A stretch of 10,144 nucleotides of DNA from Fimbriimonadaceae bacterium. GTDB taxonomy: Bacteria > Armatimonadota > Fimbriimonadia > Fimbriimonadales > Fimbriimonadaceae. Position 1 is the stretch's first letter. Each line of letters starts with the position of its first letter. Location: NCBI GenBank assembly GCA_019454665.1, contig JACFNW010000046.1, forward strand, positions 1-10,144. The letters run 5' to 3'. Below the pieces are notes generated by a model. It did not search any database and was not told where the DNA came from. It was given only the letters and a program-made list of their open reading frames with translations. A program made the position numbers and the translations under genes. Below are positions 1 through 10,040 of this stretch, piece after piece.

Positions 1-99
1 CGGGTTGGCAACACTTCTGTCTGAAGTGCCGCATGCAACAGTGAATCCCACGGCAAGCGTTGCGAATACAAACACCAAGGCGCGCACAACGCCTAACAT
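1..99 (-). CDS. Lipoprotein, N-terminal part; candidate immunity protein for tip C
   Basis: Only the first 33 codons are in the window; the gene runs off the left edge. The start is an ATG that overlaps the stop of tip C in the string ATGTTAG, the same 7-nt overlap style as between tip A and its downstream gene. The protein opens with one Arg (VVRAL), a hydrophobic stretch and then TVAC-G, a plausible lipobox with Cys at residue 23. It is therefore likely exported and lipid-anchored in the envelope. Lipoproteins are a known class of immunity protein for toxins that act outside the cytoplasm. The position directly after a toxin-like C-terminus suggests that role here. No family can be recognised from so short a piece, and the immunity role rests on position and localisation only. 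Confidence 0.7.
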   Translation of the reverse strand, partial: MLGVVRALVFVFATLAVGFTVACGTSDRSVANP

Positions 100-1082
100 T
101 CCCGACCATCCCAATTCTGACGTACCGTTACTCCGTTCACGGGTCCTACAACGGCTTTTGGAGCGAATAGCTGTCCGTTACAGCAGCGGAAAGTTTCCTG
201 GTATACAATGCGCCGCTGCCATTTGTCATTGGGAAGTCCCTTATGGCAGGTTGACATCATTTTGCGATTGAGAAACCCATGATCTGTCCCCTTGCAGCTC
301 TTGGCCAATCTTGCAAGCTCCTGTCCAAGCTCAACACCGGATCCGCCACCCGGAAACTCTGAGATTATCGCGAGTACTATTGCAGCGAAGTCAAAGCCAG
401 GAAAGCAATTCATGTCTATCTCCTGTTTGCATTCGGTATCAATCCTGCTGCGGAGCCCACCCATGGGCCAATGCTTTATCTTGAGAGTAAGCGTTGAAGT
501 TCCAGTGCAACCTTCAGAACCATACCCCTTACAGTGGAATTTGCAGACAGGAGCGTCACCAGTGGTCACATCCGCATATGGATGCCCCGGACAACTTACT
601 AACTTGTACTGGCCAGGTCGCGTTTCGCGATAATCAGCGAAACTCACACATTTGCGCCGCCTCCAGATGATCTTACAGTCGCAGTGCACCATTGGAGTTA
701 ACCCGGATCCATCTGACCAGATCACAGGACTGGCATGCGCATATCCATATGCTGGCTGATCGGGCCAAACTGGGTCCACATTGGTCCAAGCGGCTTGCCT
801 GCTCCCGTAGTGCCTCGCCCGGTTGTACTGCTCGGCGTAGCTTGCTCCCGTGGTGCGGCTGCCGGTGCTGCCCGTCCACATGAATCTTGGATCGGGGGCG
901 GAGCCGGTCTTGGAGAGGAGGCCTCCATAGGGTTTGTAGCGGTAGGTGTTCTCGAGCGTTCCGTTCTGGTCGTAGGTGGCGACGACCGAGCCGAGGGCGT
1001 CTTTGCCGTAGAACCTGCGTCCTCCCGGCCCCGTCTCGCCCAGCAGTTCTCCGTTCAGCGTGTGGTAGTTCGTCACGGGCAT
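93..1082 (-). CDS. RHS tip C: RHS core end fused to a Cys-rich putative toxin domain
   Basis: This frame encodes 329 aa. Residues 1-107 are the end of an RHS/YD-repeat core, nearly identical to tips A and B, including LGSVVATYD, YKPYGG and YNRARHYGSRQ. The last ten of these residues have diverged (AWTNVDPVWP against GWTSVDPLWP). The segment YGYAHASP...SDGSGL then marks the usual RHS boundary, and about 200 residues of unrelated sequence follow with 14 Cys and no recognised fold. The ATG at 1082 was chosen because it matches the starts of tips A and B and lies 4 nt after the stop of the 79-aa gene. An in-frame TTG at 1148 would add 22 residues but lies inside that gene. This copy lacks the strong ribosome binding site of the other two, so it probably depends on reinitiation. 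The lipoprotein gene overlaps its 3' end by 7 nt. A toxin role is inferred from RHS architecture; the activity is unknown. Confidence 0.8.
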   Translation of the reverse strand: MPVTNYHTLNGELLGETGPGGRRFYGKDALGSVVATYDQNGTLENTYRYKPYGGLLSKTGSAPDPRFMWTGSTGSRTTGASYAEQYNRARHYGSRQAAWTNVDPVWPDQPAYGYAHASPVIWSDGSGLTPMVHCDCKIIWRRRKCVSFADYRETRPGQYKLVSCPGHPYADVTTGDAPVCKFHCKGYGSEGCTGTSTLTLKIKHWPMGGLRSRIDTECKQEIDMNCFPGFDFAAIVLAIISEFPGGGSGVELGQELARLAKSCKGTDHGFLNRKMMSTCHKGLPNDKWQRRIVYQETFRCCNGQLFAPKAVVGPVNGVTVRQNWDGREC

Positions 1083-1089
1083 GGGCTCA
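762..1089 (-). repeat. RHS tip repeat, copy C
   Basis: This is the third copy of the conserved RHS-end repeat. It starts at the junction string TGAGCCCATG (1089-1080) and ends where the coding sequence leaves the common VDPLWP motif. The 110 nt at 967-1076 are the same in all three copies. Unlike copies A and B, the match does not extend upstream of the TGA: the 79-aa gene ends there and supplies the TGA itself. Towards the variable domain this copy is the most diverged. Confidence 0.9.
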
Positions 1090-1326
1090 CACCGTCGGGC
1101 CACCTCGCAGAACACGAAGGCACTTTCGGAAGAGAGATAAGCCAGCAAGCAAAGACGGGAAAAGCAGCAAATGTGGCATCAACATTCTCAAAGACTCACC
1201 ACGGCTCAATCGTGGTGCCGTTGCATGAAGATCGAATACGGCACTAACGGCCCCGACCAGGCCGCCAGTGCCAAGCAGAAGCATCAAGACGGCCGTAATC
1301 CAACAGCACATTAAATGCCACTTCAT
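1087..1326 (-). CDS. Small two-helix membrane protein; candidate immunity protein for tip B
   Basis: The 79-aa protein has two hydrophobic stretches, about residues 8-31 and 48-66, joined by a short polar loop, with a basic tail (RKCLRVLR). It looks like a small inner-membrane protein. A strong Shine-Dalgarno GGAGGT (1341-1336) lies 9 nt before the ATG and is made from the last codons of tip B (LGGR-stop). Its stop is 4 nt before the ATG of tip C. Short polytopic proteins directly behind toxin genes often give immunity to membrane-active or periplasmic toxins, which fits the phospholipase-like signature of tip B. No family is recognised. The start is well supported by the ribosome binding site; the immunity role is inferred from position. 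Confidence 0.75.
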   Translation of the reverse strand: MKWHLMCCWITAVLMLLLGTGGLVGAVSAVFDLHATAPRLSRGESLRMLMPHLLLFPSLLAGLSLFRKCLRVLRGGPTV

Positions 1327-1329
1327 CCG

Positions 1330-2214
1330 TCATCGACCTCCTAATTGGCAGTTTGCCTTTGCCGCTTTTGTTGTAAGTACTTTAGGGCCCCATAAGGTGC
1401 AATATGCTGCTGCTCCTCCACAACCGAAGCAAGCATGAGTAAATCCCCAGCTAAAGCAATACGCGTAATTGCTGCAGCAGAGGCAGGAGACGAACTCAGC
1501 TATCCGAAGATGTGCATTGTCACAGCCATAGATCGTTCCACGTTCTCCAGGTAGGTCATGCGTTAAGCAGTAGTGCGGAAGAAGACAATCCATTGGATAA
1601 GGCCAGCCTTCACCCGTATCGCGAATCCAGCCCTGGCTCCCCTCCTTAATCCATTGATAGAATTTGCACTTCTTGCAGCCGTTCAGCTTCTTGGAATCAA
1701 ATTCCATTTGCGACTGGTGATCGTAGGAACATTGGCCGCGTAGCCAACTGCTCGGATGCCATGTTCTGCAACAATCGGTGCAGGTGCACTTATTGTTGCT
1801 AAGTGTGATCTTAACTGAAGGTGCGCAAGCGCGGCCAGATGGATCAGCATTTGTCATGGGGTTCAATCTCGAGTACGCATAGGCCAGCTCGTCCGGCCAC
1901 AGCGGATCGACGCTGGTCCATCCCGCTTGCCTGCTCCCGTAGTGCCTCGCCCGGTTGTACTGCTCGGCGTAGCTCGCTCCCGTGGTGCGGCTGCCGGTGC
2001 TGCCCGTCCACATGAAGCTTGGATCGGGGGCGGAGCCGGTCTTGGAGAGGAGGCCTCCGTAGGGCTTGTAGCGGTAGGTGTTCTCAAGCGTTCCGTCTTG
2101 GTCGTAGGTGGCGACGACCGAGCCGAGGGCGTCTTTGCCGTAGAACCTGCGTCCTCCCGGCCCCGTCTCGCCCAGCAGTTCTCCGTTCAGCGTGTGGTAG
2201 TTCGTCACAGGCAT
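1330..2214 (-). CDS. RHS tip B: RHS core end fused to a Cys-rich, phospholipase A2-like domain
   Basis: This frame encodes 294 aa. Residues 1-107 are the shared RHS end, followed by DELAYAYSRLNP...DPSG, a classical RHS end motif (to about residue 127). The remaining ~167 aa are unique and very rich in Cys (19 after residue 107). Around residues 201-220 the pattern G-x-G-x-P, then M-D-C, then C216-L-T-H219-D220 resembles the active site of secreted phospholipase A2 enzymes (G-x-G-x-P-x-D...C-C-x-x-H-D), where His is the catalytic base and Asp binds calcium. C231-D232 and C244 could be the second conserved Asp/Cys element. The canonical second Tyr/Cys after HD is missing (L-P instead), so the assignment is tentative. 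The ATG is preceded by a strong GGAGGAG site. The 79-aa membrane protein begins 3 nt after the stop. Confidence 0.82.
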   Translation of the reverse strand: MPVTNYHTLNGELLGETGPGGRRFYGKDALGSVVATYDQDGTLENTYRYKPYGGLLSKTGSAPDPSFMWTGSTGSRTTGASYAEQYNRARHYGSRQAGWTSVDPLWPDELAYAYSRLNPMTNADPSGRACAPSVKITLSNNKCTCTDCCRTWHPSSWLRGQCSYDHQSQMEFDSKKLNGCKKCKFYQWIKEGSQGWIRDTGEGWPYPMDCLLPHYCLTHDLPGERGTIYGCDNAHLRIAEFVSCLCCSNYAYCFSWGFTHACFGCGGAAAYCTLWGPKVLTTKAAKANCQLGGR

Positions 2215-2260
2215 GGGCTCAGCTCCTCCCCTGGAGGTAGTCCGCGGCGTCCCAGATCAG
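1894..2260 (-). repeat. RHS tip repeat, copy B
   Basis: This is the second copy of the repeat. It begins at CTGATCTGGGAC (2260), 46 nt before the ATG, so it includes the tail of the upstream RHS core reading frame (LIWDAADYLQGRS-stop), the ribosome binding site and the 107-codon RHS end. It matches copy A over 367 nt with a small number of base differences. To the right of 2260 the similarity to copy A stops abruptly, which marks a recombination joint. Confidence 0.9.
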
Positions 2261-2390
2261 GCGAGTCAAACGCGACAAGGCCCGAGACCGCGAGGTTTGG
2301 AGCCGGAAACGCTCCGAGGATGCGATCCACGTTCAAGCGTTCCCAGCGTTCACAAAGGTCGATCATGAAACAAACACCTGATAGTCTCAT
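2205..2390 (-). CDS. Short open frame bridging the 335-aa gene and tip B (doubtful)
   Basis: The frame encodes 61 aa. Its ATG overlaps the stop of the 335-aa gene (TGATG), and its own stop overlaps the start of tip B (ATGCCTGTGA), so it would couple the two genes translationally. However, its last ~19 codons are simply the RHS repeat leader read in another frame; the same frame is also open at copy A. The first ~40 residues resemble no family I know. It may be a real small gene, a remnant left at a recombination joint, or chance. The overlaps at both ends are the only positive evidence. Confidence 0.25.
   Translation of the reverse strand: MRLSGVCFMIDLCERWERLNVDRILGAFPAPNLAVSGLVAFDSPDLGRRGLPPGEELSPCL
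2223..2231 (-). promoter_or_regulatory. Strong ribosome binding site of tip B
   Basis: The string GGGGAGGAG lies 8 nt upstream of the ATG at 2214. It is a near-ideal Shine-Dalgarno and fixes the start of tip B at the conserved MPVTNYHTL sequence. The TGA of the RHS core frame lies between the site and the ATG (AGCTGAGCCCATG). Confidence 0.75.
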
Positions 2391-3397
2391 CAAAGTCCTT
2401 CAACAGGAACTAAGTAGGACTTGGTGCCCATCTCAAGTGGTATGTCCCGCCAGTGCTTGGCGCCCAACTCATATGCCCGTAGCTTCATTGGCCCGCCAAC
2501 CTTTGATGACCACAGAATGACCAATGCGTTGAGACTCAACCCGCTCACTCCCCATACATAACCTGCTGGACATGGAATCTCTAGATTGTCACCGGAAATC
2601 GCATCGAAGAGACAAATATTGGTGGATTTGTCGTCATCGCTCTTAACCGCGAATGCCAACACCGCAGTGGACGGCAACCAAGACCAAGTGGTCAGCATGG
2701 GATGGCCCGCCACCTTTGTAAGGTTTGTGTTTGCGTCGTAGCACATGAGCTTGCCGTCGCAATAAAACGACACGAACCTTTGGTCGAATGAGCGCAATAA
2801 ACTTCCAATGATCGTACCCGAAGATATCACAGTCCCGGACCCTGATCCGACATCGACTACACGCACTGTTCCCTTTCGTTCAGCTCGGAAGCCCTGACTG
2901 ACTACAAAGCTCGGTGATGCCTTACTGACAACCTTCCGAGCTTCATCGCTTGAAGACAGCTCTGTCAGCATGTTCGATTTGATGTTCCGTGGCGTGGGAA
3001 CTTGCTTGCCGCTGAATGGGTCCACCATTTTGGACGCCTGCCCCGTGACCAAGGCATCTGTGCCGGCGATCCAGAAGGCGGCTTCTTCGGGGCCAAGGGA
3101 CCAACTGTTTCGCCGCCCAGTCCTGCTTACAACTGACAAGCACTCACGGAGAGGATGCCGGCAAATGCACTTGGCAAGGCTGGCTTGGCGATCCTCGCTC
3201 AGACAGACACTGAGCAGGTGGCACTCCCCTTTGCAAACGAGATCTGACTTTGACACGTGTGATGCAAACCCGCCAGTGGAGATCGCCCAAAGACTTCCCC
3301 TAGAACTGTCCTGAACAAACAGTGCCGACGATGTCCAAATGGTGCTCGGTTGAGGTGTCAGGCCGACCGATACAAGAAGGGCTAATAGGCTCAACAT
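2390..3397 (-). CDS. Secreted protein of unknown family, perhaps beta-propeller; candidate immunity protein for tip A
   Basis: The 335-aa protein starts with an uncharged hydrophobic segment (MLSLLALLVSVGL) consistent with a short signal peptide, so it is probably periplasmic or secreted. The rest is rich in beta-prone, loosely repeating segments with hydrophobic-aromatic pairs and Gly/Asp turns (LFVQDSSRGSLWAIS, FVSFYCDGKLMCYD, LAFAVKSDDDKSTNICLFD), which suggests a beta-propeller-like fold without clear blade signatures. It has about ten Cys, mostly in the N-terminal half. The ATG overlaps the stop of tip A by 7 nt (ATGTTGA), with an AAGGTGG ribosome binding site upstream inside the tip gene. 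The base composition is poorer in GC than the genes to the right. Position directly after a toxin-like C-terminus and predicted export argue for an immunity role, but it is larger than most immunity proteins, so an accessory or unrelated cargo gene is possible. Confidence 0.75.
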   Translation of the reverse strand: MLSLLALLVSVGLTPQPSTIWTSSALFVQDSSRGSLWAISTGGFASHVSKSDLVCKGECHLLSVCLSEDRQASLAKCICRHPLRECLSVVSRTGRRNSWSLGPEEAAFWIAGTDALVTGQASKMVDPFSGKQVPTPRNIKSNMLTELSSSDEARKVVSKASPSFVVSQGFRAERKGTVRVVDVGSGSGTVISSGTIIGSLLRSFDQRFVSFYCDGKLMCYDANTNLTKVAGHPMLTTWSWLPSTAVLAFAVKSDDDKSTNICLFDAISGDNLEIPCPAGYVWGVSGLSLNALVILWSSKVGGPMKLRAYELGAKHWRDIPLEMGTKSYLVPVEGL

Positions 3398-4359
3398 GTT
3401 ATAGTTAGTCCACCTTTCTCAGCATAGTTTCCATGGCTTGGAGCCAGGTGGACACACTTGTCCAACTTCGACTCCTTATGACCACACTTTTGGATTCCGA
3501 ACGACCTCTTTCGAGGTGAATGTGGGCAAATGCGACTGGTCTTTTCGTTGCAACAGTTATAGAATTCATATTTGTGAGCGTCAGGCGTATAGCATGGCAG
3601 ATGGTCGCACAGATTTGCAACCTGGAGCGCTTCGCAAAGAGGGCTGCATGACAGTTTGGATATGGGCGGTGGAATTCCGAATTCTGCGCAGATCGCTTTG
3701 CAAGCAGTTTCGCAGGCAGAAGCAACTAGCTTCTCACAAAGCTTCTTAATCAGGCCAGGGCGATCGATGACCGCGAATCGAATGGCAGTAACAACCGTAT
3801 GTTCGTAATCACAGTGGTTGCTCTTACTCCACTGCCTCTCGTGCTGCCAGGCGATGTACACTTTGAGCCCAAATCGTTGGACCCATTCCTCCTGGCCATT
3901 GCCTGGGAATTGATAACGAAAGTGCCATTTCTTTGTGATGTGCTCTGGTTGGCAGGAACAAGGATTCTCACAAGGAGATAGTCCGTAAGGATCAATTGCT
4001 GTAATCGGTCGTGGTGAGTATGCAAATGGGGGCAGAAGGGGCCACAGCGGATCGACGCTCGTCCAACCGGCTTGCCTGCTCCCGTAGTGTCTCGCTCGGT
4101 TGTACTGCTCGGCGTAGCTTGCTCCAGTGGTTCTGCTGCCGGTGCTGCCCGTCCACATGAATCTTGGATCGGGGGCGGAGCCGGTCTTGGAGAGGAGGCC
4201 TCCATAGGGTTTGTAGCGGTAGGTGTTCTCGAGCGTTCCGTTCTGGTCGTAGGTGGCGACGACCGAGCCGAGGGCGTCTTTGCCGTAGAACCTGCGTCCT
4301 CCCGGCCCCGTCTCGCCCAGCAGTTCTCCGTTCAGCGTGTGGTAGTTCGTCACAGGCAT
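3391..4359 (-). CDS. RHS tip A: RHS core end fused to a Cys-rich putative toxin domain
   Basis: This frame encodes 322 aa. Residues 1-107 are the shared RHS end, followed by FAYSPRP...IDPYGL, an RHS end motif close to the DPxGL site where many RHS and TcC proteins cut themselves. About 195 residues of unique sequence follow, with 18 Cys after residue 107, including SPCENPCSC near its start and FYNCCNE further on. An aromatic, basic stretch (KKWHFRYQF) and a Cys-rich helix-like stretch (LVASACETACKAICAEF) are visible. No enzyme family is recognised. The high Cys count suggests a disulfide-bonded domain that works outside the cytoplasm. The ATG has a strong GGGGAGGAG ribosome binding site and lies 4 nt after the stop of the truncated RHS core frame. 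The downstream 335-aa gene starts within its last codons. The toxin role is inferred from RHS architecture. Confidence 0.82.
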   Translation of the reverse strand: MPVTNYHTLNGELLGETGPGGRRFYGKDALGSVVATYDQNGTLENTYRYKPYGGLLSKTGSAPDPRFMWTGSTGSRTTGASYAEQYNRARHYGSRQAGWTSVDPLWPLLPPFAYSPRPITAIDPYGLSPCENPCSCQPEHITKKWHFRYQFPGNGQEEWVQRFGLKVYIAWQHERQWSKSNHCDYEHTVVTAIRFAVIDRPGLIKKLCEKLVASACETACKAICAEFGIPPPISKLSCSPLCEALQVANLCDHLPCYTPDAHKYEFYNCCNEKTSRICPHSPRKRSFGIQKCGHKESKLDKCVHLAPSHGNYAEKGGLTITC

Positions 4360-4405
4360 GGGCTCAGCTCCTCCCCTGGAGGTAGTCCGCGCCGTCCCAG
4401 ATCAG
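4039..4405 (-). repeat. RHS tip repeat, copy A
   Basis: This is the first copy of the repeat in transcription order, and the only one still joined to more upstream RHS core sequence. It shares 367 nt with copy B, from CTGATCTGGGAC (4405) through TGAGCCCATG to the VDPLWP codons. It has private synonymous-type changes near codons 76-87 but agrees with copy C against copy B further towards the start, so the copies are mosaic. Confidence 0.9.
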
Positions 4406-4636
4406 CGTCGTCCGACCCGACCCGGTGGTCTCGGAGCGCTTCAGCCCGTCGCCGTCGTAGGCGTACGTGGTCCGCGCAAGGCTTTCCACATGGACGATCA
4501 TGCGGTTCTCTTCGTCGTACTGCATCTCGACGGGAAGTTCCTCGTCGACCGCGACCTCGAGCGAGGTCCGTCCGGCGGCGGCGTAGGCGAAGGTCCTGAA
4601 GCCTCCTGCGGGTTCGACTCGGGTTCTCGTGCCCAC
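4364..4636 (-). pseudogene. RHS core fragment, 5'-truncated
   Basis: These 90 codons encode RHS/YD-repeat core sequence: FRTFAYAAAGRTSLEV, MQYDEENRM, TTYAYDGDGLKRSE and LIWDGADYLQ are typical strand motifs. A real RHS protein would have hundreds to thousands of residues before this point, but an in-frame TAG lies a few codons upstream of the GTG at 4636 and the HD-GYP gene ends only 100 nt upstream. The fragment therefore lacks its N-terminal part. Its frame ends with TGA 4 nt before the ATG of tip A; dropping one G from GGGG at the ribosome binding site would join the two frames into continuous RHS sequence. It may be a decayed remnant, a recombination landing site for tips, or a short coupled leader. 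Confidence 0.7.
4368..4376 (-). promoter_or_regulatory. Strong ribosome binding site of tip A
   Basis: The string GGGGAGGAG lies 8 nt before the ATG at 4359, identical in sequence and spacing to the site in front of tip B. It supports independent translation of the tip as a separate polypeptide rather than only as the end of a long RHS protein. Confidence 0.75.
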
Positions 4637-4736
4637 GGTGTCCTAAGCATACTCCCTGTGGCGGCTTCCGGGATCGGTTTCGCCCGATTTCCTGCCCAGA
4701 GCGCCGAATAACTGCGTGACCCCGTCCCATCCGCGC

Positions 4737-6881
4737 CTACGCCGCGCGCTTGGTCGAGTGCAGCTTGCGCATCATCCGCACGAACGCGGGGGCGAGCGAC
4801 GGGTCGAACTGGGTGCCCGCGCACCGCTCGATTTCGGCGAGGGCCACTTCAGGCTCCAGTCCTTTGCGATAGGGGCGGTCGCTGGTCATGGCGTCGTAGG
4901 TGTCGGCCAAGGCCAGGTACCGCGCGATGAGCGGGATGTCCTCGCCGGCCAAGCCATCCGGGTAGCCGCGCCCGTCCCACCGTTCGTGGTGGTGGCGTAC
5001 GCCCGGCAGCATGGAGGCCAGTTGGGGTACGCGCTTGACGATGACCTCGCCCAGGACGGGGTGGGTTTCCATCACGGCCCGCTCTTCGTCGGTCAGGCGA
5101 CCGGGCTTGGTCAGGATGGCGTCTGGCACGCCGATCTTGCCCACGTCGTGAAGCGTGCCGGTGGCATGGATCAACTCGACCATGTCTTCGGTCATGCCCG
5201 TGGCACGCGCGAGTTCCGACGCGTATTCGGCCACGCGTTGGCTGTGGCCCTTGGTGTAGGCGTCCTTCGCGTCCACGGCGGCTGCGAGCGCCTGGATCGC
5301 GACGAAGCTGCCGTCGCCAGTCAGCAACTGGCTCAAGCGGAACGGGTCGGATTCACCATCCGATTGCAGGGAATCGAAGCGACAAACCGTGTTGCGGCCC
5401 AGTTGCTTGGCGCGTGAAAGGGCCAGTTCTGCGGCCAGAACGAGCCCTTCGCTTTCGATTACGGTCGGCCCGATGGCCGCACAACCGACACTGGCCGTCG
5501 CCGTATAGCCCGTCTTGCCCGAGAGCTTCTGGAACGCGGCGCGGAGCGTTTCGGCCAGGTGCTCTGCGAAGGGCAACTCGACGTTGGGAAGGATGACGGC
5601 GAACTCGTCGCCCCCATATCGGCTGACGATGGCCGAACCGGGCACCGTGTCTTGAATCAGTCCCGCCATGGACTGGAGGAGGCCGTCGCCGGCGCCGTGC
5701 CCGAAGCCCTCGTTGTATTTCGAGAAGCGGTCAATGTCAATGAGCAACAGCGAGAGGGCGTCGCCCGCTTCGGCGCATCTCGGGCACTCCTGAGCGAGCC
5801 GTTCGCGAAACTTCCGGTGGTTGAGGAGCCCGGTCAGCAAGTCGCGGTCAATCAAGCCGAGCAACCGTTCCTGACTCTCGCGCATCGAACGCGTCATTTC
5901 GTTGAACGACGATTGCAGGAGACCGAGTTCGTCTGTGCGCGTCACGGGGATCGTTTCGGGCCATTCGCCCGACCGCAGCTGCCTTGCGGCTGCCACGACG
6001 TCTTCCAAGGGCGTCGAAACGCCTTGGGCGATGCGCCTTCCCGCTGCGAGGGCGGAGACGACGCCGACGCCAAACAGAAGCAACAAGCCCACTCGGAAGG
6101 GTCCGTACACGCTTTGCGCCTCGCCGTGCGAACGCAGCGTGATCATGCCCAGCGCTTCGCCCACGTCCGAGTTGGGGAGAGGCGTCCATTGGGCGTAGAA
6201 CAGCCGATGGCCGACTTCGAGGAGCTCGGGTCGGAGTCGGGCGGCCTCCATCTCGTCGGGTGTCTTCATGGAGGCGGCGAACACGCGCGAGCCCTGAAGG
6301 AACGCGACGTCAACTCCCAAGACCTGCTTCAGCCTTCCCGCCAAGACGTTGTCAATCTCCTTGTAGGCCGAGATCGTGGCTTGCGTGAATCCTTGGCGCA
6401 TGTAGGGGACGACGACCAACAGGTAGGCCTTTCCCGCGCGCGCCGTGATGGCGGTGTGCTCGGCGCCCATCAAGGCGCTTTCCACTCCGGCCACGCTCGC
6501 ATCTTCGGGCTTGATGTTGCCCGACCATGCCGTGTACCGTCCGACGCTGTCCGTGATCAGGAGCGCATCCAAGGTGAGCTGCGCCCTCAAGTCCGCCGCG
6601 TAGACATGGCGCGTCTCGGCGGCGGCGGGATCGTCGCTCAGACTGGCGATGACCTCGGGTCCGCTGGTGAACGCAAGGAGCCGAATCTGGGAGCGCATTC
6701 GATGGCTCTCGTTCTCGATCATCTGGCTCAGCAGCTTGCCGTTGCGCTCGATGTCCTGCCTCACCTGCCGGTCCACTTCGTTGTTCGTGAGCATGGCGAG
6801 GGCGGCGAAGATCAGCACGGACAACCCGGCCACTGAGCCGGCGATGACCGCCATGAGTTTGTGCCGCAGCGCCAGTTTCAT
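4737..6881 (-). CDS. Membrane sensor with HAMP, GGDEF and HD-GYP domains (c-di-GMP synthesis and breakdown)
   Basis: This 714-aa protein has one membrane helix at about residues 10-31, an extracytoplasmic sensor region (about 32-262, CACHE-like in size), a second helix (about 263-282), a HAMP linker (about 283-337), a GGDEF domain (about 340-503) and an HD-GYP domain (about 525-710). GGDEF is intact at 423-427 with DIDRF at 382-386, so diguanylate cyclase activity is plausible; the RxxD inhibitory site is absent (PGSA in its place). The HD-GYP domain has GHSQRV, LHDVGKIG with H578-D579, HHHERWDGRGYP and ALADTYDAMTSDRPYR, all expected for a c-di-GMP phosphodiesterase. The ATG at 6881 follows the stop of the cupredoxin gene by 2 nt (TGACGATG) with an AGAGG site; an in-frame start 31 codons earlier would lie inside that gene. 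It is the last gene of a three-gene operon. The signal it senses is unknown. Confidence 0.93.
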   Translation of the reverse strand: MKLALRHKLMAVIAGSVAGLSVLIFAALAMLTNNEVDRQVRQDIERNGKLLSQMIENESHRMRSQIRLLAFTSGPEVIASLSDDPAAAETRHVYAADLRAQLTLDALLITDSVGRYTAWSGNIKPEDASVAGVESALMGAEHTAITARAGKAYLLVVVPYMRQGFTQATISAYKEIDNVLAGRLKQVLGVDVAFLQGSRVFAASMKTPDEMEAARLRPELLEVGHRLFYAQWTPLPNSDVGEALGMITLRSHGEAQSVYGPFRVGLLLLFGVGVVSALAAGRRIAQGVSTPLEDVVAAARQLRSGEWPETIPVTRTDELGLLQSSFNEMTRSMRESQERLLGLIDRDLLTGLLNHRKFRERLAQECPRCAEAGDALSLLLIDIDRFSKYNEGFGHGAGDGLLQSMAGLIQDTVPGSAIVSRYGGDEFAVILPNVELPFAEHLAETLRAAFQKLSGKTGYTATASVGCAAIGPTVIESEGLVLAAELALSRAKQLGRNTVCRFDSLQSDGESDPFRLSQLLTGDGSFVAIQALAAAVDAKDAYTKGHSQRVAEYASELARATGMTEDMVELIHATGTLHDVGKIGVPDAILTKPGRLTDEERAVMETHPVLGEVIVKRVPQLASMLPGVRHHHERWDGRGYPDGLAGEDIPLIARYLALADTYDAMTSDRPYRKGLEPEVALAEIERCAGTQFDPSLAPAFVRMMRKLHSTKRAA

Positions 6882-6883
6882 CG

Positions 6884-7456
6884 TCACCTCTTGCGCACCT
6901 CGAGGTCGAGCTTGAGAACTCCGGTGGCGGGCACCTCCACCTTGTGCGTCGCCACGGCACCGGATTCGTGCCAAGCCTTCAGCGTGTACGTCCCGGGTGG
7001 GACCTTCTCAATCTTGTAGGTGCCGTTCTTGGCACTCACGTCGTAGTGGTTGGTCTCGACCACCAGGATGAACGCGCTCATTTCGGAGTGGATGCGGCAG
7101 AGCATGCGGGCGAGCCCGGGCTTGTCGAACTTGTAGGTCTTGGACTGGCCCCTTGCATAGGTTCCGAGATCAACGACCTTCTCGTTGAACGTGAAGTAGA
7201 CGTTGTGGTGGAGGGTGTCGCTGTTGGGGAACGTGACCGAGCTGCCGACCGGAACGACCATGACGTGCGGCACGAACGTCCGTTCGCGTTGATCCATGCG
7301 CCGGTTCAGTGCCCTCGACGTCCCCGGCCCTTCCAGCGTGACCGCCACGTTCGCCACGGCCTTGCCGTTCAGCGTGACCGTGCCCGCGACGTCTCCCGCC
7401 TTCGCCAGCGAGGCGATGGACAGTGCTGCGAAGCAGGCGAGGTTGCGCGTGGTCAT
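6884..7456 (-). CDS. Secreted cupredoxin-like protein with a C-terminal beta-sandwich
   Basis: The 190-aa protein has a signal peptide (cleavage likely after ASLAKA, residue 20) and so acts outside the cytoplasmic membrane. GDVAGTVTLNGKAVANVAVTL looks like the start of a carboxypeptidase-regulatory-like beta-sandwich. The middle is cupredoxin-like: PVGSSVTFPNSDTLHHNVYF, then C120-R-I-H123-S-E-M126. His84 (or 83), Cys120, His123 and Met126 would be a type-1 copper site, as in the plastocyanin-like proteins often labelled 'methylamine utilization protein'. NGTYKIEKVPPGTYTLKAWHE closes with another beta-sandwich-like motif. The ATG at 7456 follows the stop of the upstream gene by 2 nt (TAGCCATG). 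Being between an outer-membrane protein and a c-di-GMP sensor suggests a role in sensing or carrying copper or electrons in the envelope; this is inference. Confidence 0.85.
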   Translation of the reverse strand: MTTRNLACFAALSIASLAKAGDVAGTVTLNGKAVANVAVTLEGPGTSRALNRRMDQRERTFVPHVMVVPVGSSVTFPNSDTLHHNVYFTFNEKVVDLGTYARGQSKTYKFDKPGLARMLCRIHSEMSAFILVVETNHYDVSAKNGTYKIEKVPPGTYTLKAWHESGAVATHKVEVPATGVLKLDLEVRKR

Positions 7457-7458
7457 GG

Positions 7459-8406
7459 CTAGAACCGAACGAACGTGATGGCTTGGAAGCTCCAACCCCG
7501 GTTGTTGGCGCCGGGGCCCTTTTTGCTTCCCCAACTGTAGTTGGCTTCCAGAATGAGGTCCCGCGTGAGCGTGTATTTGGCTCCCGTCGTGGCGAGCATG
7601 GCCTGATCGCCGCTGGGGCCCCGGAAGCCTTCGTGCCGCGCCAGCAGGGTGACCCTGCGGTCGAACTTCGGAAAGACGTAGAGGTCCAGGTAATGGCCGC
7701 GAGGCTTGGCGTTGCCGACGTCACCCCACAGGTACTCGCCCTTGACCTGGTAGCCGGGCTGGGTGAGCAGAAAATCGAGGTCGTAGAGTTCGGTCCGGTC
7801 GGCGCGCTTCGCCCCGGACTTGCTGAGCGAGTTGAGCCCGACGATGGTCGGTCCGAGCGGGATCTCCAGCCGAGCCACAACGTGTTCCATGTTGCGCGGG
7901 CCCCATTGGAACGGCTCTGGGCTCTCGTCCAGGACGCCCACCTGAAGCCGGCCGACGCCCTTGACCGGGAACGAGGCGTCCGCGCCCGTTGTCAGCCCGT
8001 TGGCCGTGAGTTGGGGGCTGGTGCGAACGCGGATGATGGGGTTGCGGACGAAGCCGCTGTACCACTCGGACCAGTCGCCGTAGCCGAACGCCTTGCGGAA
8101 CCGGCCGAATCGGAAGTCGGCGTCGCCGGTCGAGTACTTCACGTAATTCTCGTCCAACATCTCGGTCACCGGGTCGAAGAACGAGCCGTTCATCGTCCAG
8201 TAGCCGGCGGTGACAGACCACATGGGCGAGAGGTGCAGGGTGCCCTGCGCCCACCACGAACGGTGGCGGACGCGGTCGGTCTCCTGGTTCGGGATGGACC
8301 AGAGGTAGTGCTCCAGCACGCCCGTGAACCTCGGGTATTCCTCTTGCGCGGACGCCGCGACGGGCGCCACGGCAAGCCAGACAGGCAAAAAGCGGCAGAA
8401 CTTCAC
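7459..8406 (-). CDS. Outer-membrane beta-barrel protein (porin-like)
   Basis: The 315-aa protein starts at a GTG; an in-frame TAA upstream leaves no better start. A signal peptide is clear, with cleavage likely at ASA-Q (residues 18-21). The mature part alternates polar and hydrophobic or aromatic residues (WWAQGTLHLSPMWSVTAGYW, DADFRFGRFRKAFGYG, YQVKGEYLWG, YLDLYVFPKF) and ends in ITFVRF with a terminal Phe, the usual C-terminal signature for beta-barrel insertion. This implies a diderm cell envelope. It is the first gene of the operon with the cupredoxin-like protein and the c-di-GMP enzyme. No exact family or substrate can be named. Confidence 0.8.
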   Translation of the reverse strand: MKFCRFLPVWLAVAPVAASAQEEYPRFTGVLEHYLWSIPNQETDRVRHRSWWAQGTLHLSPMWSVTAGYWTMNGSFFDPVTEMLDENYVKYSTGDADFRFGRFRKAFGYGDWSEWYSGFVRNPIIRVRTSPQLTANGLTTGADASFPVKGVGRLQVGVLDESPEPFQWGPRNMEHVVARLEIPLGPTIVGLNSLSKSGAKRADRTELYDLDFLLTQPGYQVKGEYLWGDVGNAKPRGHYLDLYVFPKFDRRVTLLARHEGFRGPSGDQAMLATTGAKYTLTRDLILEANYSWGSKKGPGANNRGWSFQAITFVRF

Positions 8407-8441
8407 TTCTAACGCGAAGTATCGGAAGGTGACGGCCCATC

Positions 8442-8447
8442 TTTATA
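8442..8447 (-). promoter_or_regulatory. Possible -10 element for the outer-membrane protein operon
   Basis: TATAAA on the minus strand lies about 35 nt upstream of the GTG start in the 161-nt divergent intergenic region, a sensible position for a -10 box. No convincing -35 box is seen at normal spacing, so this is a weak call. No promoter was found for the divergent plus-strand gene. Confidence 0.25.
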
Positions 8448-8567
8448 ACCGAGATTTCAGCAACTCTCGTCGTTGGGCACTCGGTACGCTTCGCCGCAAC
8501 ATTCCCGGCGCGCGCGCGTCTCATCATTGGCGGCGGGTTGGTAGGCTCGCCGAAGAGGTACACGCGG

Positions 8568-10040
8568 ATGATCTGGCTTTCGATTCTCGGCGGTCTTGCG
8601 ACCGGACAACTGGCTTCCAACACGGAACTCACCATCTACAACCAGGGCTTCGCCCTCGTCAAAGAGGCTCGCGAGCTTTCGCTCTCGGCGGGTCGGCAGT
8701 CGCTGGCCATCGAAGACGTGGCCGCCCTCATCGAAACGAACAGCGTGGGCGTGCGGCTGATCGGCGGGACGCCGTTCCAGGTGCTCGAGCAGAACTACCA
8801 GTTCGACCTGATTTCGGTTCAGGCGATCCTGAACAAGGCGGTCGGCAAGAAGGTCACGTTCAACCGCGTCCACCCCGATGGCTCGAAGGAGCGCATCTCG
8901 GGCACGCTGGTGAGCAGCCCGACTTCCATCGTGAACCCCGGCGTCTCGGACCCGAACGCGGGCTACAACTGGGGTTCGTACGGCATGCCCGGCGGTTCGA
9001 CGATGACCTACAACGGGATGGTCGTGCGGACCGACGACGGGCGCATTTTGCTCAACCCCACCGGCGAGATCGAGGTCGCCGAGATTCCCGAGGGCCTGAT
9101 CAGCAAGCCCACGCTCATGTGGGAGATCGAGGCGGCGCGCGCGGGCCGATCCAACGTCGAGCTGAGCTACCTGACCAACGGCGTCACGTGGAATTCGGAC
9201 TACGTGCTGACCATCGCCGAGGACGCACCGGGCGCCATGCAGGGCTGGGTGACGCTGAGCAACCAAAGCGGACGGACCTACGCCGACGCTACGCTGAAAC
9301 TGCTTGCGGGCGACGTGAACCGGGTCCAGCCTGCTCGACCGGGCGGGATGGCGCGGGGCGGATTCGGCGGCGCGGCTATGGACATGGCGATGGGCAAGCA
9401 GTTCGAGGAGGAATCGCTCTTCGAATACCACCTGTACACGCTGCAACGCAAGACCACGGTGCGGGACAAGGAGACCAAGCAGGTGTCGCTGTTGGCCAGC
9501 AACCAGGTGAAGACCACCAAGAAGCTGATCCTCGACCCCCTGCGCTCGATGGGCATGTACTATCCCGGAGAGGGCGAGGTGGGCACGGGCGAACTCAAGC
9601 CGCAAGTGCGCGTCGAGTTCGAGAACACCGAGGCGAACGGCTTGGGCATCCCGCTGCCCAAGGGCAAGGTGAAGGTCTACCAACGCGACAAGAGCGGCTC
9701 GGTGCAGATGATCGGGGAGGACTCGATCGACCACACGCCCAAGAACGAGAAGCTCTCGCTGGTCGTGGGCCGCTCGTTCGACATTCGGGCGGATCGGTTG
9801 CGGACCAACTTCGAGCGGCTCGGCCCGCGTTCGACGCGCGAGTCGTTCTCCATCGAGATTCGGAATCGGAAGGACGTTCCCGAGACGGTGCACCTGTACG
9901 AGCGGCGCTGGGGCGACTGGACGGTCACGCGGTCGAGCATGGACTTTGCGAAGCTGGATTCCAACACGATGGAGTTCGTGGTGACGCTCGGGGCGGGCGA
10001 GTCGAAGACGGTGACGTACACGGTGGAGACCAAGTGGTGA
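8568..10040 (+). CDS. Exported DUF4139 domain protein
   Basis: The 490-aa protein has a short hydrophobic N-terminus (MIWLSILGGLATG) that fits a signal peptide, followed by TELTIYNQGFALVKEAREL, the usual beginning of this family, where early strands report 'bare' beta structure. YLTNGVTWNSDYVLTIAE (about 201-218) is the DUF4139 signature, and the C-terminal half (FENTEANGLGIPLPKGKVKVYQ, FSIEIRNRKDVPETVHLYE) completes the domain. A Gly/Met-rich loop lies at about 259-277. The ATG at 8568 was chosen over an in-frame TTG at 8538 because an AGAGG site precedes it at suitable distance and the signal peptide starts there. It is transcribed away from the operon on the other strand. The molecular function of this family is not known to me. 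Confidence 0.9.
   Translation: MIWLSILGGLATGQLASNTELTIYNQGFALVKEARELSLSAGRQSLAIEDVAALIETNSVGVRLIGGTPFQVLEQNYQFDLISVQAILNKAVGKKVTFNRVHPDGSKERISGTLVSSPTSIVNPGVSDPNAGYNWGSYGMPGGSTMTYNGMVVRTDDGRILLNPTGEIEVAEIPEGLISKPTLMWEIEAARAGRSNVELSYLTNGVTWNSDYVLTIAEDAPGAMQGWVTLSNQSGRTYADATLKLLAGDVNRVQPARPGGMARGGFGGAAMDMAMGKQFEEESLFEYHLYTLQRKTTVRDKETKQVSLLASNQVKTTKKLILDPLRSMGMYYPGEGEVGTGELKPQVRVEFENTEANGLGIPLPKGKVKVYQRDKSGSVQMIGEDSIDHTPKNEKLSLVVGRSFDIRADRLRTNFERLGPRSTRESFSIEIRNRKDVPETVHLYERRWGDWTVTRSSMDFAKLDSNTMEFVVTLGAGESKTVTYTVETKW

Follow-up and report, generated by a model that had tools for sequence, protein, structure and literature searches.

We analysed a 10,144-nt window, contig C459 of an incomplete Fimbriimonadaceae (Armatimonadota) metagenome-assembled genome (MAG; 3.06 Mb, 689 contigs, 89.9% complete), and propose, with a probability of roughly 0.58, that it carries three arrayed cassettes of tip and immunity gene from a split RHS toxin system whose corks are loaded in trans. 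Three minus-strand frames, here called tips A, B and C (Table 1), each open at an ATG with a common 107-residue RHS end, the core, and then run into cysteine-rich C-terminal domains (C-domains) that are unrelated among the three. The cores are 97–98% identical to the first, and the DNA holds a corresponding 300-nt repeat at 763–1062, 1895–2194 and 4040–4339 (94–95% identity). Each tip is followed directly by a different gene of exported, membrane or lipoprotein type, although neighbour A counts as exported by a lax hydropathy rule and as free of transmembrane segments by a stricter one. This arrangement had been read in the initial annotation as a polymorphic toxin/immunity layout with no delivery gene nearby, and our comparisons bear out both points: no full-length RHS, PAAR or VgrG gene was seen within the window. 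The NCBIfam profile Rhs_assc_core (TIGR03696) matches two of the three tips above its cut-off and the third just below, the latter rising above the cut-off when taken together with its neighbours. The start of tip C was placed at the ATG at 1082; the longest open version of this frame would begin at TTG 1148.

The split nature of the system is seen in the relatives. A core search over 101 genomes gave matches in 59, many of them in frames of 280–400 aa, and a frame survey of 80 stretches yielded 189 profile hits. Core-bearing frames were kept when they scored at least 60 and the match began by profile position 25; 135 of these 152 frames were of tip type, and 129 were complete tip-type frames in which 50 or more residues follow the core (L040–L119 plus the window). 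At 19 places in the relatives a shell frame of 893–1316 aa stops immediately before a tip. Shell genes in Fimbriimonadaceae and relatives measure about 900–1,300 codons and end in ...WDG.DYL..stop; over the 19 junctions the ending takes the form WDG.[DE][YLM][LV]..., with the stop 11–39 nt upstream of the conserved tip core, and the last shell codons (DYLGE, DYLQGR) often double as the Shine-Dalgarno sequence of the tip. At least three of the 19 shell frames (L052, L087, L116) are without the N-terminal part. RHS repeats were present and PAAR was absent in the seven shells scanned, and DUF6531 exceeded its cut-off in one of them (L109), other matches remaining below theirs. As a separate observation, these cysteine-poor shells keep two cysteines, one in all 15 shells aligned (L115, L056, L057 and others) and the other in 14 of them.

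The YD-repeat shell is therefore not in the same protein as the tip, being a separate gene in the relatives and a decayed one in the window. The 90-codon fragment before tip A, described in the initial annotation as further core sequence, is RHS sequence but belongs to the 3′ end of a shell gene (Table 1). The Shine-Dalgarno-like sequence of tip A is contained in the last codons of this remnant, and the sequence layout of the junction is comparable to that of the 19 junctions in the relatives. Upstream of tip C there is no shell stub; the TGA stop of immunity gene B occupies the place of the shell stop (TGAGCCCATG), 4 nt before the start. The partner foreseen for the tips had been a full-length RHS gene ending in the core, whereas the relatives pair their tips with a shell gene that has no tip and stops just before the core. 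The shell and tip frames of the window lie close together at GGGGAGGAGCTGA, as might be expected if a programmed frameshift at the junction joined shell and tip into one protein. However, relative to the tip the shell stop occupies each of the three frames across the 19 junctions (0, +1 and +2 in 5, 6 and 8 of them, the tip's own frame thus in five), which argues for separate initiation and leaves a programmed frameshift extremely improbable.

At each of 29 Armatimonadota-type loci (16 named genomes) no more than 105 open codons preceded the best core match; in other lineages at least 179 did so in 40 of 47 loci, and fewer in seven. One record among the 16 genomes, named Methanoregulaceae archaeon SJ84 (JADZEW01; L129, L132, L148), carries split RHS arrays and is probably a mislabelled MAG. 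In a sample of the phylum the core profile matched 203 of 291 genomes, the weaker matches including other RHS classes; among the matches listed, all but one lay in frames of at most 441 aa (families f1, f5, f11, f12 and f16). Unsplit RHS frames of 1337–1587 aa with other cores also occur, in G001 and G002, two genomes of the window's genus, beside split ones. What is apparently a tandem array of RHS genes occurs in another genome (G020:C1:101863-114126), where three frames of 1368–1380 aa lie at intervals of about 4.5 kb and share the same match score. Assembly error was considered as a source of the split and is unlikely, as shell/tip junctions or tips are found again in genomes assembled as one contig (G009, G034, G059) and across the 16 named genomes. 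We regard the split architecture and the separate tip starts in Fimbriimonadaceae and other Armatimonadota as nearly certain on this comparative evidence. At the level of sequence, RHS is shown to be commonly two-part in Armatimonadota: a shell gene with a fixed end is followed by a separately initiated tip gene, which holds the last RHS repeats, an aspartyl-autoprotease dyad and a variable C-domain.

The tip core corresponds to the closing part of characterised shells. The tip-core profile matches the solved Rhs shells 7q97, 8h8a and 8uy4, and the core aligns to the end of such shells as far as the first catalytic Asp motif (residues 1047–1128 of 8h8a and 1182–1266 of 7q97). An Asp dyad with a spacing of 19–24 is present in 117 of the 129 tips, with a spacing of 21 in 102, counts made with no shuffled control. 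Its counterpart in RhsA is the residue pair D1324/D1346 (PMC8765631), and the C-terminal plug of Rhs1 is an aspartyl-protease domain (PMC8636562). The tips thus show what defines Rhs proteins, an Rhs-associated core (TIGR03696) that ends in the autoprotease motif and is followed by a variable C-domain. A tip may accordingly be described as plug plus cargo, preceded by roughly the last RHS repeats, the exact strand boundary being an estimate.

We then considered whether orphan tips are translated. The start codon is ATG in 107, GTG in 15 and TTG in four of the 129 tips, with none in three. GGAG, GAGG or AGGA stands at −18 to −4 in 85 of 126 tips, where 21.2 would be expected; 113 of 126 have an in-frame stop no more than 60 codons upstream, and the start falls exactly 15 or 18 nt before a conserved core position in 108 of 126. 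All three pairs of window cores have few nonsynonymous substitutions (dN 0.012–0.021) compared with synonymous ones (dS 0.16–0.21). Genome medians of dN/dS, taken over within-genome core pairs with dS of 0.02–1.5 (two genomes had no such pair), were 0.039/0.93 in G033, 0.077/0.91 in G034, 0.081/0.66 in G056 and 0.037/0.53 in G052. The low dN/dS of the cores suggests that orphan tips are probably translated and not just stored. Several features would suit a silent store in which orphan tips are not made and act as donors that reach the expression site next to a shell gene by recombination through stub and core. Shell 3′-end stubs stand directly before 53 of 126 tips (shell-adjacent tips included); where a genome has at least two copies, 104 of 121 have their nearest relative within that genome, at a sampling of about one genome per genus; alike cores carry unrelated C-domains; and the accepted model invokes recombination with standalone cassettes (PMC3482391). 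The low dN/dS between copies, which extends to a dS of about 0.9, speaks against such a store, and we hold it to be unlikely. The earlier suggestion that the tips may be a store for a full-length gene also sits poorly with the relatives, where every tip forms a cistron complete with a start codon of its own.

Putative immunity genes accompany most tips. An open frame of at least 60 codons lies directly downstream in 120 of the 129, and in 69 of these 120 neighbours a hydrophobic segment lies at the N-terminus or two or more such segments occur, compared with 91 of 458 control frames, which were longer, mechanical frames. Homologous tips had homologous neighbours in 7 of 90 pairs versus 9 of 7911, the pairs not being independent; this first count took the next tip as the neighbour in at least one case (tip B), and the later hydrophobicity count excludes tips. 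The homologue of tip C in G002 likewise has a lipoprotein-type gene next to it, and the neighbours of tip A and of its L076 homologue were not alike by BLASTP (E 0.23). Conservation of the neighbours without the tips had been named beforehand as a finding that would tell against the pairing; for the 335-aa neighbour A, the one checked, no match was found in 84 other family genomes. The neighbours suit an immunity role in position and type, and, judged by family, the tip/neighbour pairs are likely to be toxins and their immunity proteins. The 79-aa immunity protein B (1087–1326) has a sub-cut-off match to PycTM (the transmembrane part of Pycsar effectors; E 0.02), which probably reflects hydrophobic segments only.

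The cargo domains are diverse and rich in cysteine. Over the 129 tips the C-domains contain 6.9% Cys (median 14 residues), compared with 0.27% in the cores and 0.35% in the shells; the window tips have 14, 19 and 18. The Cys count is more often odd than even, in 93 of 129 domains, in 88 of 129 whole tips and on average in 51.6 of 75 homology clusters (p about 0.002), so that one Cys per tip may be unpaired or bonded elsewhere. HExxH occurs in 28 of 129 C-domains (0.5 expected) and the pattern H[DE].C in eight; the latter we take to resemble phospholipase A2. Domain scans covered 120 of the 129 tips, nine from L044, L045, L053, L077, L090, L100 and L119 being omitted for an unclear start or as other RHS classes. 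Pfam returned Tlde1 (3), Ntox16 (2), DUF6973 (1) and NAGPA (1) at E up to 0.001, and NCBIfam returned the RHS core only, in five. The window toxin domains had been thought undescribed, and this holds: none has a Pfam or PADLOC match or any known toxin family above cut-off, and NCBIfam gave a single sub-cut-off match, of tip A to a halocin-C8-like family (E 0.054). A search of about 5.8 billion proteins with these domains returned tip B itself as the only hit; it also missed a relative of tip C, a tip in G002 with 38% identity in the C-domain, found in one of 84 other family genomes. The C-domain of tip A is 26% identical to that of a tip in genome G029 (L076:9032-9925; E 4e-13). Predicted structures were poor (mean pLDDT 49.6 for tip C and 48.3 for tip A), averaging above 70 only in residues 11–70 and 1–70, respectively. 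Given the Tlde1-type hits and the exported or membrane neighbours, action of the C-domains in the envelope is our best guess from sequence.

In the mechanism that we favour, each tip would be translated from its own ATG and would dock as a cork, together with its cargo, into a shell made elsewhere, much as TcC does into TcB. The tip would cleave itself near the second Asp motif, and the released disulfide-rich C-domain would act in the envelope of competing cells, with the exported, membrane or lipoprotein neighbour serving as the immunity protein. Cassettes may pile up when a new tip inserted beside a shell displaces the old one together with a piece of the shell 3′ end, and recombination through the common core may keep the cores of one genome alike. 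To judge the supply of shells, we searched 17 better genomes (E up to 1e-20). Eleven contain a shell that extends to the fixed end or almost to it, among them G002, whose shell is broken by a frame change, and G033, whose shell is of another core class and has a tip 24 nt later.

A number of results weigh against this mechanism. Neither an intact shell of the window class nor a further copy of the window core was found in the MAG, so that the search proposed earlier for an RHS gene with a matching end came back empty. RHS genes tend to assemble badly, and the absence is for this reason weak evidence. The remaining six of the 17 genomes, with only shell remnants or other RHS classes, keep tips, which means that tips outlive shells; their full-core tip-length frames number eight in G034, seven in G049, five in G056, three in G161, six in G162 and eight in G180, the counts for G034, G049 and G056 covering fetched stretches only. 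By hydropathy none of the 129 tips has a signal peptide, some hydrophobic segment being present in 24, and none of 15 shells has a clear one (L084 reaches the threshold, but before the first Met). Phage_base_V/VgrG was found in none of 12 genomes and PAAR in one, and delivery by a type VI secretion system (T6SS) is not supported. In core pairs largely of different classes the median dN was high (dN/dS 0.342/0.53 in G009, 0.380/1.03 in G018, 0.414/0.86 in G074 and 0.805/1.31 in G076). Finally, shell stubs, taken as an internal control, decayed faster than cores in 25 of 32 pairs and in 7 of 10 genome medians, a difference that was in the expected direction but not significant (Wilcoxon p = 0.13); 7 of 39 pairs with infinite values had been dropped, and some pairs include intact shells.

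Because six genomes keep tips without an intact shell, we put docking of the tips in trans, as judged from the architecture and from TcB/TcC, at about even odds. The same six genomes, three of which (G034, G049, G056) were measured and gave low dN/dS, would also suit shell-independent effectors or chromosomal toxin-antitoxin pairs of the kind described for orphan Rhs of Salmonella, and Rhs-CTs expressed alone are known (PMC7043789). However, the kept RHS end and autoprotease dyad are easiest to understand with a shell, the tips show no signal peptide by hydropathy, and the cysteine-rich domains and often exported neighbours speak against action in the producer's own cytoplasm; we consider shell independence improbable. 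Split cassettes with corks loaded in trans remain the reading that we prefer for the window.

The remaining features of the window are given in Table 1; the part at 4737–10040 looks ordinary. A scan of positions 1–5200 for sigma-70-type promoters found none, an Rfam scan gave no match and a scan of a virus collection found no relative. Elsewhere in the same MAG, another class of RHS core is matched four times, on the short contigs C624, C11 (two) and C632 (L040–L042), in frames of 240–484 aa. In a genome of the same genus, a core 94% identical to that of the window over 66 residues (G001:C19:10337-10534, L043) sits in a frame that ends at 84 aa, a broken tip. In G033 a shell is followed by five tips of one core class (C1:2742976-2750161), and 50 kb from this array stand four tips of another class (C1:2799660-2810712).

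Table 1 Features of the 10,144-nt window.
Feature	Position	Strand	Description
Putative immunity gene C, start	1..99	-	Lipoprotein-type signal; truncated by contig end; 7-nt overlap with tip C
Tip C	93..1082	-	329 aa; core 1082-762, cysteine-rich C-domain
Putative immunity gene B	1087..1326	-	79 aa; two hydrophobic segments; 3 nt after tip B
Tip B	1330..2214	-	294 aa; core 2214-1894, cysteine-rich C-domain
Shell 3′-end stub	2215..2260	-	Short; ends ...LIWDAADYLQGRS-stop; gives tip B its start context
Putative immunity gene A	2390..3397	-	335 aa; short hydrophobic N-terminus; 7-nt overlap with tip A
Tip A	3391..4359	-	322 aa; RHS end with Asp dyad (core 4359-4039), cysteine-rich C-domain
Shell/tip junction	4357..4378	-	GGGGAGGAGC-TGA-GCCC-ATG: shell stop, ribosome-binding-type sequence, tip A start
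Shell gene remnant, 3′ end	4364..4636	-	Ends ...TTLIWDGADYLQGRS-stop; 67% identity to a relative's shell residues 915-977; YD repeat
Decayed upstream shell-gene piece	4553..4723	-	One in-frame stop; 49% identity to G002 shell residues 704-761
GGDEF and HD-GYP-type protein	4737-6974		With HAMP
Carboxypeptidase-regulatory-like/cupredoxin-like protein	6884-7534
315-aa frame	7459-8406		No Pfam match
DUF4139-like protein	8538-10040		Match below cut-off

In the common view, polymorphic toxins acquire a different warhead when recombination places a new tip on a single large gene. Our comparisons raise the possibility, which we advance tentatively, that Armatimonadota swap RHS toxins by translation and not by DNA rearrangement alone: one shell would be filled in trans by several interchangeable cork-toxins, as in a miniature TcB/TcC directed against other bacteria. 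The toxins, rich in disulfides, would act in the envelope, and delivery would use neither a T6SS nor a signal-peptide pathway. If this is true, self-sufficient tips in a split system would allow a cell to have several warheads for one container in simultaneous use, and the system would offer a natural example of RHS in two parts, its docking module being very small at about 107 residues. The tips themselves form a large set of mostly undescribed, cysteine-rich and probably envelope-acting domains. No description of the split arrangement in Armatimonadota was found in the open literature, preprints and most subscription papers lying outside the search.

Among known systems, TcB/TcC is a two-protein RHS cocoon whose second protein carries the autoprotease and the variable toxin (PMC11067744), an organisation that the layout of shell and tip genes fits and that their products may share. 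An orphan yenC3 gene provides a protein that complexes with YenB, so that distant tip genes serve one shell (PMC11067744). In TcC, however, about 680 residues precede the cargo (PMC11067744), compared with about 107–130 in the Armatimonadota tips, and 120 of the 129 tips differ further in being followed at once by an open frame of 60 codons or more. Orphan rhs-CT/rhsI and cdiA-CT/cdiI modules are similarly short tip fragments with a core end and an immunity gene, arranged in arrays (PMC3150448), and the Armatimonadota cassettes share with orphan Rhs-CT/RhsI a core-homologous tip with an immunity-type gene, apart from an intact main gene. In contrast to those modules, which have no translation start of their own, most Armatimonadota tips have a start at one common position and a Shine-Dalgarno sequence, as the start statistics indicate, and the shell-adjacent tip is also a separate gene. 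As would hold for the Armatimonadota tips, a tip of orphan Rhs in Salmonella can be produced by itself; its start there is a CTG inside the rhs frame (PMC7043789), whereas the start here belongs to a separate gene, often with an envelope-type neighbour. RhsA and Rhs1 of T6SSs share the YD-repeat shell, the C-terminal aspartyl-protease plug and the encaged toxin (PMC8765631, PMC8636562); they are described there as one polypeptide with a VgrG partner, whereas the Armatimonadota system is split between shell and tip genes.

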